Below, in pieces: positions 10,887-42,130 of a stretch of 53,165 nucleotides of DNA; position 1 is the first letter of the stretch; each line of letters opens with the position of its first letter. This stretch comes from Alphaproteobacteria bacterium (lineage in GTDB: Bacteria > Pseudomonadota > Alphaproteobacteria > Micavibrionales > Micavibrionaceae): NCBI GenBank assembly GCA_021208265.1, contig JAJOJU010000028.1, positions 1 to 53,165 of the forward strand, in the 5' to 3' direction. The position numbers were made by a program, and so were the translations under genes. The notes under the pieces were generated by a model that did not search any database, was not told the origin of the DNA, and was given only the letters and a program-made list of their open reading frames with translations.

Positions 10887-11840
10887 TTAGCCCATCAAGC
10901 GCTGTGATGCCGGGCGGGTGGAAAGCCGCTGTAAAAGCTCATCCAGCTGATCAAGATCCTTGAATTCAATGGTCAGCCTGCCTTTTTTGCCGTCACGGCT
11001 GTCAATATCGACGCTCATGCCCGGCGCCGCGGATAAATCCGCCTCCAGCAAAATCGTGTCCGGGTCTTTATTCCCGAAGGATTGCACATGGCCTTTATCC
11101 TCGCGCGGGTTCTTGCTCTTGCCGCTGCTGGATTTGCCGGAGCCCGCCAGCGCCTCCGCCTGCCGCACCGACATGGAACCCGCGATAATATCCGCCGCCA
11201 GCGCTTCAGGATTGTCAGATGTCGCAATCGCCCGCGCATGCCCGGCTGATAATTTACCATCGCGCACCATTTGCTGAATATTCGGGGAAAGCCCCAGCAA
11301 TCTCAGCATATTCGCCACATGCGGGCGGCTTTTACCTACGGCTTCCGCCACTTTTTCCTGCGTATAGCCAAAGCTTGCCATCATGTGGTCATAGCCATGC
11401 GCTTCATCAATGGGGTCCAGATCTTCGCGCTGCAGGTTTTCAATCAGCGCAATCTTGTATGACTCTTCCTCCCCGGCATCCAGGACGACCACCGGCACTT
11501 CGTGCAACATGGCTTTCTGGGCGGCGCGCCAGCGGCGTTCCCCGGCGATGATCTCATAGCGCGCATCTTTACCTTCCGAAAGCGGGCGTACGATAATGGG
11601 CTGCAGAATTCCATGCTCTTTAATTGACGCCGTCAATTCCGCCAAGGCCGTTTCATCGAAATGCTGGCGCGGCTGGTTTAAATGCGGGGCGATTTGCTCG
11701 ATCGGCAAGCTCTGGCGCTTTTTTCCGCTACCACTAACCTCTTCCGTTGCCACTGGGGGCAATGAGTCACCATCATCCTCAAACAGGGCATTTAAGCCCC
11801 GGCCCAGCCCGCGATTTTTGGGGTTCAATGTCTCATCCAT
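10887..11840 (-). CDS. parB: Chromosome partitioning protein ParB
   Basis: 317 aa. ParB binds parS, spreads as a CTP-dependent clamp and positions the origin region with ParA. In order: a short basic N-terminus with GLGRGLNALF (the ParA-stimulating region), the CTP-binding ParB/Srx domain with IAPHLNQPRQHFD and the motif AGERRWRAAQKA, the helix-turn-helix YTQEKVAEAVGKSRPHVANM, a linker rich in Ser/Lys/Gly, and the C-terminal dimerisation domain (LTIEFKDLDQLDELLQRL). It starts 1 bp after parA ends. Two perfect parS sites lie about 1.2 and 4.5 kb away. Confidence 0.96.
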   Translation of the reverse strand: MDETLNPKNRGLGRGLNALFEDDGDSLPPVATEEVSGSGKKRQSLPIEQIAPHLNQPRQHFDETALAELTASIKEHGILQPIIVRPLSEGKDARYEIIAGERRWRAAQKAMLHEVPVVVLDAGEEESYKIALIENLQREDLDPIDEAHGYDHMMASFGYTQEKVAEAVGKSRPHVANMLRLLGLSPNIQQMVRDGKLSAGHARAIATSDNPEALAADIIAGSMSVRQAEALAGSGKSSSGKSKNPREDKGHVQSFGNKDPDTILLEADLSAAPGMSVDIDSRDGKKGRLTIEFKDLDQLDELLQRLSTRPASQRLMG

Positions 11841-11841
11841 A

Positions 11842-12666
11842 TCAAGCGGCCTTTCTTACATGTTCGCGTTCGCGGCGAATGACCTCTTTCGCCAGATTGA
11901 TATAGGCCTTGGATCCCACGCATTTCATGTCATACACAATCGCGGGCAATCCGTATGATGGTGCTTCAGAAAGCCGCACGTTACGCGGGATAATCGTTTT
12001 ATAAACCTTGTCGCCAAAGTGACCGCGCACATCAGCCTCCACCGCGCCGGACAGGTTATTGCGGCGGTCCACCATGGTCAGCACCAACCCCTGAATTTCA
12101 AGGGCGGGATTGAACTTACCCTTCACACGCTCAATGGTCTTCACCAGCTGCGAAAGCCCTTCCAGCGCGTAAAATTCACATTGCAGCGGCACCAGAACCG
12201 CATCCGCCGCCACAAAAGCGTTCAGCGTAATCAAGCTCAAGGATGGCGGACAATCCATCAAAACATAATCGAAACCACTGGCATTGCTCAGCGCCGACTT
12301 CAAGCGCGATTCGCGCATTTCTGCCGTTACCAGCTCAATCTCCGCGCCCGCCAGATGCATTGATGACGGCACAATCGAAAGGCCCGGCACCTTGGTGGGC
12401 TGCACGGATGCCCGGAAAGCATCATCTTCGAAAAATAAATCATAGGCGCTATACGCCATACCGGAGCGCTTAACACCCAAACCGGTTGAGGCGTTGCCCT
12501 GCGGATCAAGGTCGATCAACAAAACCTTCTTCCCCACAGCCGCCAATGCGGTCGCCAGATTCACAGCCGTTGTGGTCTTTCCCACACCGCCTTTTTGATT
12601 AGCAATAGCCAGAATGCGGGGGCTGCCCACGGGTTTTGAGGTGATGTTTTGCATGGAATCGATCAT
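11842..12666 (-). CDS. parA: Chromosome partitioning ATPase ParA
   Basis: About 274 aa. Deviant Walker A ATPase that binds DNA nonspecifically and moves ParB-parS complexes. The Walker A box is NQKGGVGKTTTAVNLA, the A' region VLLIDLDPQGNAST and the Walker B region YVLMDCPPSLSL. I place the start at 12666 (MIDSMQNIT). ATG 12654 (MQNITSK) also fits the family, and the longest frame starts at 12711, which would overlap the rsmG end by 20 bp. No start has a strong Shine-Dalgarno. Operon with rsmG upstream and parB downstream. Confidence 0.95.
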   Translation of the reverse strand: MIDSMQNITSKPVGSPRILAIANQKGGVGKTTTAVNLATALAAVGKKVLLIDLDPQGNASTGLGVKRSGMAYSAYDLFFEDDAFRASVQPTKVPGLSIVPSSMHLAGAEIELVTAEMRESRLKSALSNASGFDYVLMDCPPSLSLITLNAFVAADAVLVPLQCEFYALEGLSQLVKTIERVKGKFNPALEIQGLVLTMVDRRNNLSGAVEADVRGHFGDKVYKTIIPRNVRLSEAPSYGLPAIVYDMKCVGSKAYINLAKEVIRREREHVRKAA

Positions 12667-12691
12667 GGGAAAACCCGCACGATTCGTCAAG

Positions 12692-13308
12692 TTAAATGGG
12701 GTTTTGCCCATCGTTTTTTAGGGGGCGTTTTTTCAGGGATGAAATTCTGAGTATGCGGGCCTTGCCATCCGTAACACTGGGAAAGGTTTCACAGTCAAAA
12801 TCAAATGCTGTGCGTGCGGCCGCGATCTCCTCTTCGGCCTTTTCACCCTTCATAAACACCATCTGCAAAGCCGGATTTTCTTCCGCCCACGGCCAGCACA
12901 GCGTCAACAATTTATCAAGCGACGCCAAGGCGCGTGCCGTAATAATATCCGGTGTCACAACATCATAGGCGTCTTCGATGCGGGCGGTATGAACGGTCAC
13001 AGGTGACAATGTTTCACGTGAAACATTTTTGAGGAATTGCCCCTTTTTATCGTCCGATTCTATCAGATGCACATCAACATCGGGTCGCAATATTGCAAGC
13101 ACCAGCCCCGGAAACCTGCACCGGACCCCAGATCCGCCAGCGTGAAAGCGCCATCAGGCAGATAATCCGCCACTTGCGCCGAATCGAGAAAATGCCGCTC
13201 CCACGCCGCCTCCAGCGTGCCGGGACTGACCAAATTTACAGCTTTCTGCCACTTGAGCAGCAACGCCTGATAAGCTTTCAGTTTTGCTTCGATATCAACG
13301 GAGATCAT
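12692..13308 (-). CDS. rsmG: 16S rRNA (guanine-N7)-methyltransferase RsmG (GidB), one frameshift
   Basis: Methylates G527 (E. coli numbering) of 16S rRNA using SAM. The N-terminal part reads MISVDIEAKLKAYQALLLKWQ...TLADLGSGAGF (SAM motif I), then the frame must shift by one near 13105-13112 (a CCGGGG run where CCCGGGG is expected) to continue PGLVLAILRPDVDVHLIESD and ...NVSRET. With the correction the protein is about 205 aa, the usual size. It begins 1 bp from the mnmG stop. The NVSRET stretch is encoded by a perfect parS site (13010-13025). Confidence 0.92.
13010..13025. promoter_or_regulatory. parS: parS centromere site 1
   Basis: TGTTTCACGTGAAACA, the exact 16-bp consensus palindrome for ParB binding, lies inside rsmG, where it encodes VSRET. 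It is about 1.2 kb from parB. ParB loads here and spreads to form the partition complex that marks the origin region. Confidence 0.95.
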
Positions 13309-15226: not shown

Positions 15227-16551
15227 TTATTTCCCGATACAGAAGTCGCGGAAGATAACATCCAGCAAATCCTCCACATCCACGCGGCCAGTGATGCGGC
15301 CCAAGGCGCGGATGGCGAGGCGCAAATCCTCGGCTATCAGTTCGGGCAAGGGCGCGGTAGGCGCGCGGGCCAAGCAAACGAGCGCCTCCTCCAGCGCTGT
15401 GCGGTGGCGCTGACGGGTAAGAGAGGGGTTATCGGTGCGGACGCCCATTAAATCATGCAGGCGGGATTCAATGACCTTGAGAAGTTCATCCAGCCCCGCC
15501 CCGGTTTTGGCGGAAACGGCGATGCCGGGAGCAGAACCGCCGCCGGAGTCGGATTTATTGCTGACGGCCAGCGCCGTATCGTCCAGCAAATTCAGCGTAT
15601 GCGGGTCGGGCGTTTTTTCCGTGCCGTCAAACACCAGAAGTTTGATATCGGCCGATTCAGCCCGGGCCAGAGCGCGGCGAATGCCTTCGGATTCAATGGC
15701 TTCATGGCCTTCCGCTCCAATCTGATCAGGGCGCAGCCCGGCCGTATCCGCCAAAATCACGGGATAGCCTGCAATATCCAGATGCACTTCAATCACATCG
15801 CGCGTGGTGCCTGCCATGTCAGACACGATCGCCACATCGCGCTGGGCGAGAGCGTTTACGAGCGAAGACTTCCCGGCATTGGGCGCGCCCACCACGGCGA
15901 TTTGAATGCCGTCCCTTAATCTTTCGCCGCGGCGGTTATCGGCAAGATGGGCGGCGATATCATGGTGCAGGGCTTGGATTTCAGGGGCGAATTTCTGGGC
16001 GAGATCTTCCGGTAATCTTCATCCGGGAATTCGATTTCGGCTTCCATGTGGGCCAGCGTCGCTTTCAGTCGATCCGTCCAGCCTTGATAAAGTGTGCTTA
16101 AGCTGCCGGAGAGCTGTGAGAGGGCCTGCTGTTTTTGCAGCTCGGTTTCGGCATGGATGAGGTCAGCCACCGCTTCCGCTTCGGTGAGGTCAAGCTTGCC
16201 GTTTTCAAAGGCGCGGCGGGTGAATTCGCCGGGCTCCGCCAAACGGTGGTCCGGCAGAGCGGCAAGGGCGGAGAGCAGAGATTGCACCACCGCCCGCCCG
16301 CCGTGAACGGTATATTCCACACTATCTTCGCCCGTGAAACTGGCGGGGCCTTCGAAGAAAATGACGATACCGTGATCAATTGTTTCACGTGAAACACTAT
16401 CTGCCAGCCGGGCAAAAATCGCCTTGCGCGGCTCAATTTTGGAGCGGCCTGTCAGCGCCTTCAGGCCCTGTAACACATGTGGACCGGAAGCCCGGATAAC
16501 AGCCAAACCGGCCCGGCCCGGCGCCGTTGATAGCGCGTAGATTGTATCCAT
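15227..16551 (-). CDS. mnmE: tRNA modification GTPase MnmE (TrmE), one frameshift
   Basis: About 441 aa after joining two frames. The N-terminal part (MDTIYALSTAPGRAGLAVIR, GEFTRRAFENGKLDLTEAEA) is the folate-like formyl-binding and helical region. The frame shifts by one at 16009-16017, where GATTACCGG should read GATTTACCGG. The rest gives the G domain: P-loop GAPNAGKSS, G2 GTTRD, DTAGLR, then NKSD. The C-terminus is FCIGK, whose Cys is conserved in the family. With MnmG it modifies U34 of tRNA. The start ATG overlaps the stop of the upstream DUF6489 gene (TAATG). A perfect parS lies inside the N-terminal part. Confidence 0.94.
16381..16396. promoter_or_regulatory. parS: parS centromere site 2
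   Basis: A second perfect TGTTTCACGTGAAACA, inside mnmE, again encoding VSRET. It is 3.4 kb from the first site and about 4.5 kb from parB. Confidence 0.95.
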
Positions 16552-22033: not shown

Positions 22034-23065
22034 TTAACTTTCTTTATTTCTTAATATCTTAACCAATGCTTCCACATGGGCGATGGGTGTTTCTTTATCG
22101 ATACCGTGACCGAGGTTGAAAATAAAGGGTGTGCCGTGCATGGCTTGCAGAATGGCGCGGGCACGTTTCTCCAAAGCCTTGCCCCCCGCCAGAAGCGCGA
22201 AAGGATCGAGATTCCCCTGCAAGGTTTTGCCTGGCACCTGGCCTTTGACCCATGCGGGTGATGTCAGGGAATCGAGCCCCACACCATCGACACCCGTTTC
22301 GGCAGCATAAACAGGTAGCAAAGACCCCGCCCCCTTGGGGAAACCAATGATCGGGATATCCGGATGGCGGGCTTTCAGGGTTGCCACGATTTTTTTGGTG
22401 GGGGCAATAATCCAGTCATAAAAACCTTGGTTATCCGCTTGCCCAGCCCAGCTTTCGAATATTTGTAAGACTTCGGCCCCGGCTTCCACCTGCCGGGATA
22501 AATAATCAGCCGTTGCCGTGCAAAGTATATCCAGCAGCTTTTGGAATTGATCAGGCTGCGCGCAGGCAAAAGCCTTCGCCCGGCCAAAATCTTTTGAACC
22601 TTGCCCTTCCACCATGTAACAGGCAACGGTCCACGGCGCCCCGGCAAAGCCAATCAAAGCGGTGTGATCAAACCCTTCGTTTTTCAAACCTGACCGAATT
22701 TGGCGCACGCTTTCGTAAACAGGATTCAGAGTTTCATGAATGGCTGAAACATCCAGCGCATCGATATCCAGCTTGCCCAGTTTCGGTCCTTCCCCGGCAA
22801 CAAATTCAAGCTTTTGCCCTAACGCTTGCGGTATTACCAGAATATCGGAAAACAATATGGCACCATCCATCCCGAAGCGGCGAATGGGTTGCAGCGTAAT
22901 TTCGCAGGCCGCCGCCGGATCATAAACCATGTCCAGAAAACCGCCCTTTTTAGCACGTAATTCCCTGTATTCCGGCAGATAACGCCCTGCCTGACGCATG
23001 AACCAAAAGGGGGTTCGTGCGGTTCTCTTGCCCTGCAACGCTTTCAATAACAGTTTTTCGGTCAT
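22034..23065 (-). CDS. hemE: Uroporphyrinogen decarboxylase
   Basis: 343 aa. It removes four carboxyl groups from uroporphyrinogen III to give coproporphyrinogen III, in the cytoplasm. Signatures: the N-terminal TPFWFMRQAGRYLPEYRE (substrate-binding Arg), the central GFAGAPWTVACYMVEGQGSK, and the C-terminal FNLGHGIDKETP. Intact. It is the last gene before the 409-bp intergenic region that I interpret as an origin candidate. In Caulobacter and Rickettsia oriC also borders hemE. Confidence 0.97.
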   Translation of the reverse strand: MTEKLLLKALQGKRTARTPFWFMRQAGRYLPEYRELRAKKGGFLDMVYDPAAACEITLQPIRRFGMDGAILFSDILVIPQALGQKLEFVAGEGPKLGKLDIDALDVSAIHETLNPVYESVRQIRSGLKNEGFDHTALIGFAGAPWTVACYMVEGQGSKDFGRAKAFACAQPDQFQKLLDILCTATADYLSRQVEAGAEVLQIFESWAGQADNQGFYDWIIAPTKKIVATLKARHPDIPIIGFPKGAGSLLPVYAAETGVDGVGLDSLTSPAWVKGQVPGKTLQGNLDPFALLAGGKALEKRARAILQAMHGTPFIFNLGHGIDKETPIAHVEALVKILRNKES

Positions 23066-23474
23066 GTCATGCCTATGGGGAACCTTCCCCGAATCTTTCT
23101 CGTTAGTTTCCCTGATCTTAAAAAGAATATTTTTTAAAAAAAGGATTTTGATAGATGTTGTATAGAGGTGTATCGGGGATAAGTTTTACCCGGACATTTA
23201 CCCACAGCTGTCATGTCCCTGCGAATCGCGAGGAATATTTCGATTCGCTAAAACGCCCCCTGTTTTGTCTTTTATCCTAAATCCGCTTTTACACATGGGG
23301 ACGAATCACCTTTAGAAAATCTCATGAAATGGGGGTATTTTAATCCCGGATTTACCCACAAAGCTGTCACGGATTCGGGCACAGACCCCTCGGGATAACA
23401 TTCTTCGTCAAGACCGAATCGCGTCCGAATCATTTACGCGTGACTTTTCCGGCGAAAAATATACCATAAAGGCC
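23066..23474. other. oriC: Candidate chromosomal replication origin (hemE side)
   Basis: 409 bp with no gene. An AT-rich stretch at 23115-23165 could be the unwinding element. It holds one DnaA box matching TTWTNCACA (TTTTACACA, 23287-23295) and two near-boxes TTACCCACA (23198-23206 and 23352-23360), each embedded in a repeat of the form ATTTACCCACA(AA)GCTGTCA. Seven GANTC sites start at 23091, 23223, 23242, 23303, 23372, 23416 and 23427. A perfect inverted repeat GCGAATCG/CGATTCGC is at 23221-23248. Nearby genes run outward on both sides. The position beside hemE matches the Caulobacter and Rickettsia origin. A rival cluster lies at 41.6-41.74 kb. Confidence 0.6.
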
Positions 23475-24096
23475 ATGTTCGCCGAGCAATTCAAAAAATA
23501 CGAAGCCGATAAAACATCCGCCATATTAAATGCGGTTAACCCGCATTTGGATCTGGGGGCGCTTGATACCGCGCAAACCGTGGTGCTGGGTGTGAAACTG
23601 CCTTTTTACAAGGATTACCATTTTCTGGATATTTCCGATTACAGCCAGGTGCCCGCCGTGCGCGTGTTTATTGTCTATAACCCCAAGACATCCGATGTGC
23701 GGCTTTTAAACTGGTCGAATGAGCCGATTTACGCGCTGAACAAAGACGCCCCCATTGCCCTGTCTGAAAAAAAATGTTTGCGATTATGTACGGTTTTTCC
23801 TGTCTTACGTGCGCGGTAAGCACGGCCGGTTTATCCCGGTGGAAAATGTTGATGATATCAACTGGCGCGAAGACCCGCCGCCCGCCGCCCGCCGGGCCAT
23901 CAGCAAGATGATTTCCCCGATTACATTACACGATCATGCCAAGGATGGTGCCTATCATACCAAAGCCTGCATGATGTTCCGCGATTCCCTGTTCAAGGCC
24001 GATGTTCTGGTGGCGCCGGACGGACATGTGACGATATCCGGCGAGGAACTTCTGATCGAAGATATGCCCGTGCTGGATGATGTGCTGGGGCATTGA
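23475..24096 (+). CDS. Hypothetical protein next to the origin candidate, one frameshift
   Basis: About 206 aa after correction. The first frame reads MFAEQFKKYEADKTSAILNA...APIALSEK. At the A8 run 23766-23773 one A must be removed, after which it continues NVCDYVRFFLSYVRGKHGRF and ends VLDDVLGH. No signal peptide and no motif I can name. The sequence alternates aromatic and charged residues like a compact alpha/beta protein. It is the first gene to the right of the origin candidate and points away from it. No family recognised. Confidence 0.65.
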
Positions 24097-27971: not shown

Positions 27972-28838
27972 ATGAATAAATCCTCGCGCCAGTTTAATCT
28001 TCACCTTGTATCTGATGCTACAGGCACAACCCTTTTGGGTCTGGCGCGCGCGTGCCTGGCGCAGTTTGAGGGGATTGAGCCGAATCAAAAGTTTTGGCCG
28101 CTTGTACGCACGCAGCGCCAGCTCGATGCCGTTTTGCAAAAAATTGAAGAAATGCCCGGCCCGGTTATTTTCACTTTTGTTGATCCCAAGATGCGCGAAC
28201 GGTTGATGGAACGATGTAATCACCTCGGCATTCCATGCGTTCCGGTGCTGGAGCCGATCATGAAGGCGCTTTCCGCCCATTTGGGTCAGCATGCCAAAAG
28301 TGTTCCCGGCGCGCAGCACACGATGGATGAGGATTATTTCAAACGCGTGGCGGCGCTGGATTTCGCGATGCATTTCGATGACGGCCGCATGCTGGATGGG
28401 CTGAAAGAAGCCGATGTTATTCTGGTCGGCGTGTCCCGCACATCCAAAACGCCGACCTGTTTATTCCTTGCCCGGCGCGGGGTGAAGGCGGCGAATATTC
28501 CGCTGGTGCCGGGTGTTTCCGTGCCGCCGGAATATTTGCAACTGGAACGCCCGCTTTATGTAGGCTTGAAAGTAACGCCGGAGCGGCTGTATCAGATGCG
28601 CCGTTCGCGCTTGAAAGCCGATGAAGAAGCACGCAGCAAGCTGGATGAAAATGCCTATCTTGATTTAGAAAAAATCGAGGAAGAGATGCGCGAGGCCAAA
28701 CGCCTGTTTGCCAAGCACGGCTGGCCCGTGATTGATGTGACGAAACGATCCATTGAAGAGACATCGGCGGAGATTATGAGCATTCTGCAAAGCCGTCATG
28801 ACAAGGATAAGGACACGCCGGATGTTCCCTTTTCCTGA
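27972..28838 (+). CDS. ppsR: Pyruvate, phosphate dikinase / PEP synthase regulatory protein
   Basis: 288 aa, DUF299 family. A bifunctional ADP-dependent kinase and phosphorylase that switches PPDK or PEP synthase off and on by acting on its active-site Thr. The N-terminus FNLHLVSDATGTTLLGLARA is the family signature, and the nucleotide loop is VILVGVSRTSKTPTCLFLA. The dikinase itself is not in the window, so whether the target is PPDK or PEPS is open (PPDK is usual in alphaproteobacteria). First gene of the conserved block regulator-maf-aroE-coaE-dnaQ that runs away from the origin. Confidence 0.93.
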   Translation: MNKSSRQFNLHLVSDATGTTLLGLARACLAQFEGIEPNQKFWPLVRTQRQLDAVLQKIEEMPGPVIFTFVDPKMRERLMERCNHLGIPCVPVLEPIMKALSAHLGQHAKSVPGAQHTMDEDYFKRVAALDFAMHFDDGRMLDGLKEADVILVGVSRTSKTPTCLFLARRGVKAANIPLVPGVSVPPEYLQLERPLYVGLKVTPERLYQMRRSRLKADEEARSKLDENAYLDLEKIEEEMREAKRLFAKHGWPVIDVTKRSIEETSAEIMSILQSRHDKDKDTPDVPFS

Positions 28839-38637: not shown

Positions 38638-41570
38638 GCGCGCGCCCTGTACCATAAAGTGCCGATGAGTAAAATTTCAGCGGCGCAGAATGTGCCCAGC
38701 CCGGCAGCGAGGCCCGATGTAAAGCCGTAAGAATGAAGCCCGACCCCCAGCAGATTAACCCCGAACCATGACAGCGCCACCACCACGTTCAGGAAGGCCA
38801 GCCCCGCCATAAAGGCCCGGTCCGGCAAGTGGCCGGAAAGCCGCCCGTGTTGCAGCCAGATCAGCCAGAGAACGATCAGAAGCGCGCCGTTTTCTTTCGG
38901 GTCCCAGCCCCAGAAACGGCCCCAGCTTTGATGGCCCAGATGCCCCCTAATATCGTGCCCACGCAGGTAAACAAAAGGGCGGCGATGGAGAGGCGATAGC
39001 ACAAATCATAAAGCCGTTTGCCGCCTTTCATCAGCTGCATATGAGACCAGCAGCGCCGTAATGACACAAAAACCATATCCCGCCGTGATGATCAGCACAT
39101 GGGTGGCGAGCCAGAAATTGGTGTTGAGTACCGCGCCCAGCACATCGAAATTCGATGAATCTGGAATGGTCACAGCGCCACAGCCAGCAAGGCAAGTGCC
39201 GCAAAGGACCCCGCCCCGGCAGGCAGTTTTGTTTTTTAAACGTAACGCCGCCATGATGCCCGCCAGCGCGGCAATCAGCGCCACAAATAAAACGGACTCA
39301 TAAAGCGTGCCCACAGGTGGGCGTTCGAGGATGATCATCCGCGTACCTATTGCCACCATGTGCAAAAGCAGGGCTGTGGAGAGGGATATAGCGGCAGCGG
39401 AGCCTGCGAGGGGCAAGCCGGGTTTATAAAAAGACAGCAGCAGGAAAAGCAAAGCACCCGCATAAAAACGCCATCGCCCAGTGATAAGGCTGGTAGATCT
39501 GATAAATCATTTCCGCGTGCAAAGCTGCCGGGCGCAGACCGGGGCGAGGCTTATCGAGCAGAAGGGCGTTAAGACGGGATAAGGATGCGTCCCAGTCTTT
39601 GGCATCATCCATTTGCCAGGCCAGCGCCATGGATTGCCATTGCTTAAGTATCTCTACCCCTTCCGGTGACCCGCTGCCGGAGAGTAATGTTTGCCACGGG
39701 GTTTGCCATTCCGGCGTTGCCTTGCCGTCCCATAACGGGGGAATAACGGCAAAGACGGTGTTGGGGACCGCCCCTTCGCGGATTTGATCCAGCGCGAAAG
39801 ACAGCTGAACGGTACGCATTTCTTCTTCCGTATAGGCTTTCAGGTTATCGCCCTTGCGGCTTAAAACATCCTTCACCAGCGCATCGATTTCCGGGCGCAG
39901 CCGCGCAAAATCAACATAGGACAGCGTGTATTTTTTTATGGCCCCATTCTTCGAAGTTTTCCGGCGGCTCAACATCCAGCGGCAGCACCGGGGTAAGGGC
40001 GCGCAGGACTTGCCCGTAGGTAAAAAGTTTTCCTGCAAATCTAATAAAGCCGTTTGAGCGGCGCTTTGTTTTTCCGGCGGAATGGCGGCATAGGCGATCA
40101 GCTTTTCGCGCTGCCCGGCAAGGCGGGGGCTGAGATCGGTATATGATAAAAGAACCGGGCCGTCCCCCTTGATGTTCAGGGTTTCATAAAGGGCCGGGTT
40201 TATTTTGAATACCGGTTTTTCGGCGGCGCTGGCGGGGTCGAACAGGCTTTCCGCCAGCCATTCATGCGCGGCTTTATCATCCGGTGCCGGAGTGCCCGAA
40301 AGGCGCGATAACAAAATACGGGCAAAGCTTTCGACCGGCTTGACGCGTCCTTCATGCTGGATAGGGAGCGTTCTGAAATCATCAAGGTCAAGACCTGCCG
40401 CATGGGCGTTCGTGCCGGGTATGAGGGAGATTAGCGCCAGCAAAACCGCCAAAGCCAGCTTGCGCCGTAATATCAGGGCCAGATGCAAAATCAGCCCCGC
40501 GGCGATGATGATCGTGCCGATATAAGGCACCAGCCGCCCTTGTTTTCGACAACACTTAAAACGCTGATATTCTTTCCATCCGCATCCGTATCGAAGGATG
40601 ATTGATAAAACGTGTAACCGCGGTAACGCAGCGGCGCGTTCATTGATATTTCCGCTTCCCATTTCAGGGCGCCGTCTTCCACACGCACATCAGATTCATA
40701 GGCGCGAGCCATTGCCGTGCCGGGGTGGTCGGTTTTTCTGAAATCCTGCAAGCTCAGCGCAAAGGGCAACAGGCGCTGCGCCTTGCCGAGAATGATTTTA
40801 TATTCGTGTTCCCCGGCGGCGATGACGACCGGGCGCGGCATGGCCTCAAACGCGATGTAACTGCCGTCCTGATCACCTCCCGCCCCCTCAATCGCAAAGG
40901 TGATCCCGGCCAGATTTTTCTCATCATCCTTATCCGGCGCGGTGGTGGAAAGCGCCATTTTTTCGGCGAGATCTTTGGGTGTGCCTTTCATAAAATCCTG
41001 CGCCGTTTCCGCGCGCATGGTAATGGCGCAACTGCGGCACAGGGAAAGCGGCGTGATAGAAAAAGGGGCATCCGGCAGGGGGATCGCTTTGTTTTCGGCC
41101 AGATCCGTAAACGGGACTTTGAAGGTGGCGCCGTCATCACGGAAGATGGAAAATTCCCGCGCATGATAATCATAAACGAAGGGCGATGTTTGCCCTTCGG
41201 TAAGCGCCATATAACCTTCGCGGGCAAAAAGCGCTGTCAAAAGCCCGCCGATTAAAAGCGTGAGCGCGCCCAGATGCGCCAGAATAATTCCGGCTTTGTC
41301 CCAGCGCCATTCGCTGTAGAGAATAAATTTGAGTGTAAGGTTGAGGGCAATAAACCCCAAAAGCGCGAACCCGCCGGGCAGCGGAATTTGGAACCCTTCC
41401 GGCCCCACCCATAAAATGAAGCTCGCGAAATATTGCTTCTGGGCTTCATAAATGCCGATATGACCCTGCACCAGCGTGCCCACAATCAAAAGCGCCATCA
41501 GCGCCGGCAGCGTGTAAAACACAATCGCCGGGCGGGCAAGATTCTGGATAAGGGATTGGGGTGCTTGCAT
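38631..41570 (-). CDS. ccsBA: Fused ResB-ResC (CcsBA) cytochrome c synthase, multiple frameshifts
   Basis: About 979 codons when joined. The N-terminal half (from MQAPQSLIQNLARPAIVFYT) is ResB/Ccs1-like: membrane helices and a large periplasmic domain ending YTFYQSSFDTDADGKNISVL. After a further helix comes the linker FRTLPIQHEGRVKPVESFAR, typical of fused proteins, then the ResC/CcsA half with the haem-handling WWD motif WGRFWGWDPKENGALL. It exports haem and attaches it to apocytochrome c. Indels near 40533-40541, 40021-40026, 39931-39937, 39464-39468, about 39178, about 39225, 39045-39050 and about 38935 must be bridged. Several are compensating pairs. Confidence 0.85.
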
Positions 41571-41942
41571 GGCCTAGCAATAAGTGAAACTGAGTTACTT
41601 TTCAATATGCCAACTATTTACAGATTCCATAAGCGGTTAATATCTGTGGAAAAAAATGTGGATTGATTCCTGTTATTGACTCTGGAATCGCGAATCAGTG
41701 GATAAGAAAAAAAATCTTATCCTGTGGATAACCGTGGGGGCTTGAGATTTTAAAATAGACCAAAAAAATGTGTCTTTCTAAAGTAAAGGTGTCAATGCAT
41801 TCGCAAAGACACCTTTACCTGGAGAACGAAAACGCTGCTCCATATAGCAAATCGCAGTGTAGACAGGTTCTTTGGGCATATCAAACTCTTTCTCATTCTG
41901 TCTTTTGTTTCGATGAGAATCAAAAATGAAAGAGACTAAAAA
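41571..41942. other. DnaA-box and GANTC cluster: second origin candidate or DnaA-binding site
   Basis: 372 bp without a gene. Between 41623 and 41740 lie five GANTC sites (41623, 41665, 41678, 41685, 41692) and DnaA-type boxes on the minus strand: TGTGGAAAA (41645) and a perfect TGTGGATAA (41723), with one-mismatch AGTGGATAA (41697) and a weaker TGTGGATTG (41657). The last two strong boxes flank a palindrome GGATAAGA/TCTTATCC around an A-rich loop. An AT-rich stretch follows (41748-41770). By motif content it equals or exceeds the hemE-side region, but no conserved origin neighbour is next to it. Confidence 0.55.
41783..41818 (+). promoter_or_regulatory. Leader stem-loop upstream of the 60-aa gene
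   Basis: Perfect 11-bp arms GTAAAGGTGTC (41783-41793) and GACACCTTTAC (41808-41818) with a 14-nt loop. A competing pairing, TGTCTTT (41771-41777) with AAAGACA (41805-41811), overlaps the right arm. No T run follows on the plus strand. Lying 125 bp before the small gene, it may be a regulatory leader or an operator. Confidence 0.5.
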
Positions 41943-42125
41943 ATGTTTACTACGTTAGTTAGAAGACCCATTGGCACAACGGCTAGAACGGGCGAAAAAT
42001 GCCCCGAAAGTGGTGTTTGGAGAGTAGTTGGAGAGCCATCCACTACAGCTCCAATTGCTTTTGGAAATGTGATGCCACCATATAGCGGTCGAGCTGTTAC
42101 ATGGATGCTTATCAGGCACGCATAA
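41943..42125 (+). CDS. Small conserved-looking protein (60 aa)
   Basis: 60 aa. The sequence TGEKCPESGVWRVVGEPSTT followed by AFGNVMPPYSGRAVTWMLI resembles a small-protein pattern (T-G-x-x-C-P-x-S-G-x-W with MPPY and VTW) that I remember from proteobacteria and that recalls Firmicutes YjzC. This link is from memory. No signal peptide and one Cys. The ATG at 41943 follows an A-rich stretch without a clear Shine-Dalgarno. It has a structured leader upstream and a strong terminator 10 bp downstream, so it is probably an independent transcription unit. Confidence 0.6.
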   Translation: MFTTLVRRPIGTTARTGEKCPESGVWRVVGEPSTTAPIAFGNVMPPYSGRAVTWMLIRHA

Positions 42126-42130
42126 AAGAA

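Follow-up and report, generated by a model that had tools for sequence, protein, structure and literature searches.

A hemE-linked candidate replication origin with a GcrA-type GANTC array in Micavibrionales

Where does chromosome replication begin in this Micavibrionales bacterium, and what could tie its initiation to the cell cycle? The window, i.e., the whole stretch of DNA analysed here, is a complete contig (53,165 bp) of a 1.8 Mb MAG in 53 contigs. An earlier note had proposed an origin beside hemE, and this proposal is supported by GC skew, synteny, a conserved footprint and the proximity of parS and parAB: with a probability of roughly 0.9, this organism starts the replication of its chromosome in the hemE–orfA gap at 23066–23474. 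Origins linked to hemE, and GANTC sites within them, were known beforehand. As far as the literature shows, what is new is the order-wide lack of CtrA sites combined with a GcrA-type motif array at the Micavibrionales origin, a trio element in the origins of this order and an order-specific origin neighbour, orfA. The open-access literature yielded no paper that names a Micavibrio oriC; the one on the ARL-13 genome goes no further than mentioning two skew transitions.

The gap measures 409 bp, with a GC content of 0.43 against 0.53 for the window, and gene directions diverge around it, as had been stated. To its left lie parB, parA, mnmG, mnmE, rho, hemJ and hemE; to its right lie orfA, two DUF6782 genes, ppsR, maf, aroE, coaE and dnaQ, whereas dnaA is on another contig. 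The label "hemE–ppsR gap" had to be abandoned, since ppsR begins at 27972, beyond orfA and the DUF6782 genes. The main elements of the neighbourhood are the following:

23066–23474, no strand: oriC candidate, the hemE–orfA intergenic region
22034–23065, minus strand: hemE, uroporphyrinogen decarboxylase, origin boundary gene
23475–24096, plus strand: orfA, Micavibrionales-specific gene (~205 aa) adjoining the origin
10887–12711, minus strand: parB and parA
13010–13025, no strand: parS, perfect TGTTTCACGTGAAACA
16381–16396, no strand: parS, perfect TGTTTCACGTGAAACA

Both parAB and the two perfect parS sites are 6.7–12 kb from the gap. Most of 40 relatives retain the order hemE–gap–orfA, even with inversion or replacement of genes farther out; hemE is a boundary gene with conserved synteny. 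In a second collection, which shares a few genomes with the first, orfA stands beside hemE at 12/12 Micavibrionales loci and at 0/68 other alphaproteobacterial hemE loci. Its product has no sequence match in Pfam, NCBIfam or PDB; the AlphaFold model is confident (pLDDT 90), and no convincing structural match was found among the Foldseek candidates (best Z 4.8). It is possible that orfA encodes an origin-linked factor. Two genes of this region are interrupted in the assembly: a frameshift close to an A8 run (~23766–23773) divides orfA, which is intact in relatives, and may be an assembly error; mnmE (15227–16551) lies in two reading frames (N-terminal part 15916–16551, C-terminal part 15227–15895), possibly a MAG error.

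Skew over whole chromosomes was taken from closed relatives, the MAG of the window being 79% complete and in 53 contigs. Three genomes of the same order were sampled in 20 stretches of ~20 kb plus the hemE region, and in all three the skew inverts at the hemE gap and once more at a distance of roughly half a chromosome. The local cumulative minimum lies inside the hemE gap in two of them (position 225020 in G024 and 2601448 in G051) and 47 bp outside it in the third (position 309 in G022). The window agrees within ~2 kb: its left 23 kb have a skew of −0.052 and its right 30 kb one of +0.055, and the best split, at 25.24 kb, falls 1.8 kb beyond the right end of the gap and has a bootstrap interval of 23.50–26.93 kb that leaves the gap (23.07–23.47 kb) just to its left. 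A skew minimum elsewhere, for instance at 41.6 kb, had been named as grounds for giving up the hemE candidate; it was looked for and not found, and a split at 41.65 kb fits far worse.

The window holds another cluster of seven GANTC sites at 41.5 kb, equally dense, alongside real DnaA boxes:

41543–41731: region upstream of a ResB-like gene, with GANTC and a same-strand cluster of four DnaA boxes

An origin in the gap between 41.57 and 41.75 kb, ahead of the ResB-like gene, would have DnaA boxes and six GANTC sites; in its favour are the boxes TTATCCACA, TTATCCACT, TTTTCCACA and TTATCCAGA on one strand and the cluster of seven GANTC. The location is nevertheless scarcely credible as an origin and was rejected by skew and synteny: there is no skew extremum at 41.6 kb, such a cluster is absent upstream of ResB in 19 relatives, and in closed relatives ResB is 0.3–1.1 Mb from hemE. 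A plasmid-type small ORF adjoins the cluster, which makes it look lineage-specific. Nor is its pair of boxes special as such, because tandem strict DnaA boxes occur somewhere in 21/58 genomes. It has no close second copy in the genome. The cluster is a local oddity and not the origin; it could serve to titrate DnaA or be what remains of an integrated element. The small ORF itself (~60 aa, 41936–42126) resembles small plasmids of Aeromonas and Acinetobacter at the DNA level and adjoins a tRNA-Ala gene and a hairpin at ~41783–41818.

Returning to the hemE gap as the origin, its place, conservation and motif make-up are direct results of the computation. The gap combines an AT-rich tract, probably for unwinding, with a cluster of DnaA sites, the latter only as relaxed boxes in the window itself:

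23118–23149, no strand: AT-rich tract TTAAAAAGAATATTTTTTAAAAAAAGGATTTT at a conserved position, probable unwinding side (from sequence and alignment)
23150–23166, plus strand: degenerate DnaA-trio region GATAGATGTTGTATAGA, aligning with GATAGTAGTAG of relatives; strict BUS pattern unmatched
23174–23182, minus strand: conserved weak DnaA-box-like site TTATCCCCG (CGGGGATAA)
23198–23206, plus strand: weak DnaA-box-like site TTACCCACA, block 1
23287–23295, plus strand: TTTTACACA, sole match to the relaxed DnaA-box consensus TTWTNCACA
23352–23360, plus strand: weak DnaA-box-like site TTACCCACA, block 2 (GGGGTATTTTAATCCCGGATTTACCCACA)

The AT-rich stretch noticed earlier is there, and so are the two TTACCCACA near-boxes (23198 and 23352) within a direct repeat of 11 bp (ATTTACCCACA); in the alignment, both copies belong to two conserved blocks. 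The "consensus DnaA box" did not survive inspection: searches of 23066–23474 for TTATCCACA and for strict TTATNCACA boxes found neither, and only the looser TTWTNCACA is matched, once.

Much of this anatomy is shared across the order. Read from hemE outward, 29 aligned gaps begin with the AT tract AAAATATTTTTAAAAAGG, after which come a trio region with TAGTAG, a GC spacer and CTGTG, then GGGGATAA and TTTTATCCCGAATTTATACACA. Next are either a single GANTC site or two of them (in nine genomes at a distance of 10 bp) and GGACGAATCACC, and finally a second block, GGGGTAACTTCATCCCGGATTTATACACA and CATGATTCnTTCACAGA, with a GANTC site near orfA. The spacing from CTGTG to GGGGATAA is fixed, and TTTATACACA is also part of the block-wise footprint. 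Over 40 gaps, TTATCC occurs 82 times (15 in shuffles), TTWTNCACA 32 times (2.6 in shuffles) and TAGTAG 30 times (4 in shuffles). On the opposite strand, the first part of the footprint reads TTATCCCCG-box-GGCCC-CTACTACTA.

BUS origins combine DnaA boxes and DnaA-trios in a described order (PMC8287927), and the relatives hold the 5′-TTATCCCCG-box, GC spacer and CTACTACTA on the minus strand in that published order and spacing. However, the strict published pattern with at least two GAT trios occurs in only 7/40 gaps (0.06 expected), and the window gap lacks the combination of a DnaA box, a spacer of ≤16 bp and ≥3 NAN trios, its own trio being degenerate (GATAGATGTTGTATAG). DnaA boxes are weak throughout in Micavibrionales origins, which recalls the weak, low-tuned G- and W-boxes of Caulobacter (PMC4468827). 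On the usual reading of such anatomy, we infer that DnaA binds and opens the DNA at this gap: it would load on weak-box clusters (TTATCCCC, TTACCCACA and TTWTNCACA) in two blocks and use the trio-like element to open the AT-rich tract that faces hemE, and forks would then depart both ways from the gap.

The other prominent component of the gap is its GANTC sites. Counting confirmed seven of them (23091, 23223, 23242, 23303, 23372, 23416 and 23427), each in the form CGAATC. The background of one per 256 bp assumed beforehand is too high for this genome; at the window rate (one per 475 bp) 0.86 would be expected, with a Poisson p of 3e-5 for one interval. Dinucleotide shuffles of the gap yield 2.1 ± 1.4 GANTC, with seven or more in 0.3%, and a mean of 0.48 CGAATC, with 0/5000 reaching seven. 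The inverted repeat said to carry GANTC in both arms is also real, with arms of 8 bp (GCGAATCG/CGATTCGC) at 23221–23228 and 23241–23248. Five of the seven sites have the YGAKTCG context:

23090–23095, plus strand: GANTC site 1, CGAATC
23221–23248, no strand: inverted repeat holding GANTC sites 2 and 3, both YGAKTCG-type
23302–23308, plus strand: GANTC site 4, CGAATCA, YGAKTCG-type, conserved GGACGAATCACC
23372–23377, minus strand: GANTC site 5 (GATTCG on the plus strand)
23415–23432, plus strand: GANTC sites 6 and 7, 11 bp apart, both YGAKTCG-type

The 40 gaps together hold 179 GANTC (61 in shuffles, 34 at the flank rate) and 61 YGAKTCG (6.0 in shuffles, 2.7 at the flank rate), while GATC is depleted (43 vs. 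64 in shuffles). The extended form makes up 61/179 GANTC sites (34%) in gaps and 111/1408 (8%) in flanks (p = 1e-19), although motif copies are partly inherited and such p-values overstate independence. For Caulobacter, YGAKTCG has been reported as the extended motif of GcrA-activated promoters; in Brevundimonas, a C before the site is no more than slightly preferred (PMC7987155). The excess of GANTC at the hemE gap predates Micavibrionales: it is also seen in Sphingomonadales (×7.2) and Rhodospirillales/Acetobacterales (×5.9). Over-representation of the extended form at the origin is confined to Micavibrionales among the orders compared: its share of origin GANTC is 0.32 (0.07 elsewhere), against 0.12 (0.24 elsewhere) in Sphingomonadales. 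Three hemE loci of Sphingomonadales (L196, L217 and L175) have 10–11 GANTC within 600 bp upstream of hemE, the strongest excess seen; loci of that order, as a group, mostly do without the GcrA-type extension.

Comparison with known hemE-linked origins places the locus among them in some respects only. Cori of Caulobacter crescentus is likewise an AT-rich intergenic region beside hemE with weak DnaA sites and several GANTC (PMC1914354, PMC4468827, PMC3973325), but five CtrA sites and one IHF site are found there, and COG1806 (ppsR) is its other boundary gene, whereas here the CtrA and IHF consensus sequences are absent, orfA forms the boundary and a GcrA-type GANTC array is present. The likeness to Caulobacter that had been drawn accordingly holds for the position beside hemE and fails for the CtrA sites, the IHF sites and the ppsR neighbour. 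Origins of Rickettsia prowazekii and Wolbachia share the hemE boundary, a length of ~400 bp and AT-richness (PMC1914354) but are defined by DnaA, CtrA and IHF sites, with COG1806 or COG1253 as the other boundary. The CtrA motif TTAA-N7-TTAA does not occur in the window gap and occurs five times in the 40 gaps (2.1 in shuffles, 0.7 at the flank rate); the IHF consensus WATCAANNNNTTR is found once in 40 gaps and not in that of the window. CtrA itself is encoded in 55/58 genomes, the query serving only to retrieve orthologues (matches 59–73% identical). GcrA is encoded in 56/58 genomes and a CcrM-type RAMA domain in 57/58, the genome of the window included.

Could the gap be simply a divergent promoter region for hemE and orfA, controlled by GcrA and CcrM, with replication beginning elsewhere nearby? 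Intergenic regions of alphaproteobacteria are generally enriched in GANTC (PMC3973325), and several of the sites here are close to the start of orfA. Such a reading would nevertheless have to account for skew minima at the hemE gap in three closed genomes, for weak DnaA boxes and trios enriched in the gaps and for GANTC sites four times as dense there as in the remaining intergenic regions of these loci (10.5/kb vs. 2.4/kb), the gap being the densest of its own locus in 29/34 genomes, including two loci without another region to compare. We consider it very improbable. The same GANTC sites may all the same simply serve the hemE and orfA promoters.

With the gap taken as oriC, the role of the array is a separate question. 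Because of the form of the motif, its conservation and the presence of genes for both proteins, we hypothesize that in Micavibrionales the origin is under the direct cell-cycle control of a GcrA/CcrM methylation switch instead of CtrA, with GcrA binding a methylated CGAATC array within oriC. The CGAATC(G/A) array would be methylated by CcrM and read by GcrA; hemi-methylation after fork passage would shift the occupancy of GcrA or RNA polymerase at the origin and at the divergent hemE and orfA promoters, and the methylation state would thereby tie initiation to the cell cycle, replacing direct blocking by CtrA. Control of initiation by such an array in place of CtrA is a speculative and rather unlikely proposal. 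It is weakened by Caulobacter, where loss of ccrM leaves initiation control undisturbed (PMC3973325), an observation that also tells against the array acting independently of GcrA, as a SeqA/GATC-like sequestration device or a once-per-cycle hemi-methylation licence. This GcrA-independent role would fit the GANTC excess in Sphingomonadales and Rhodospirillales/Acetobacterales, where the GcrA-type extension is not favoured, but not the strong over-representation of that extension in Micavibrionales gaps, with the caveat that the copies are not independent; we regard it as conceivable, though doubtful.

These results locate the origin in an order that has been little studied, is largely uncultured and counts predators among its members. 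They show that an alphaproteobacterial origin can stay beside hemE without CtrA sites and with a GcrA-type array, while CtrA is still encoded. If the GcrA/CcrM reading is true, the Caulobacter circuit would be rewired in a clade that includes predators. The Micavibrionales origin offers a direct test ground for the regulation of initiation by methylation, an idea that the ccrM deletion in Caulobacter does not support.
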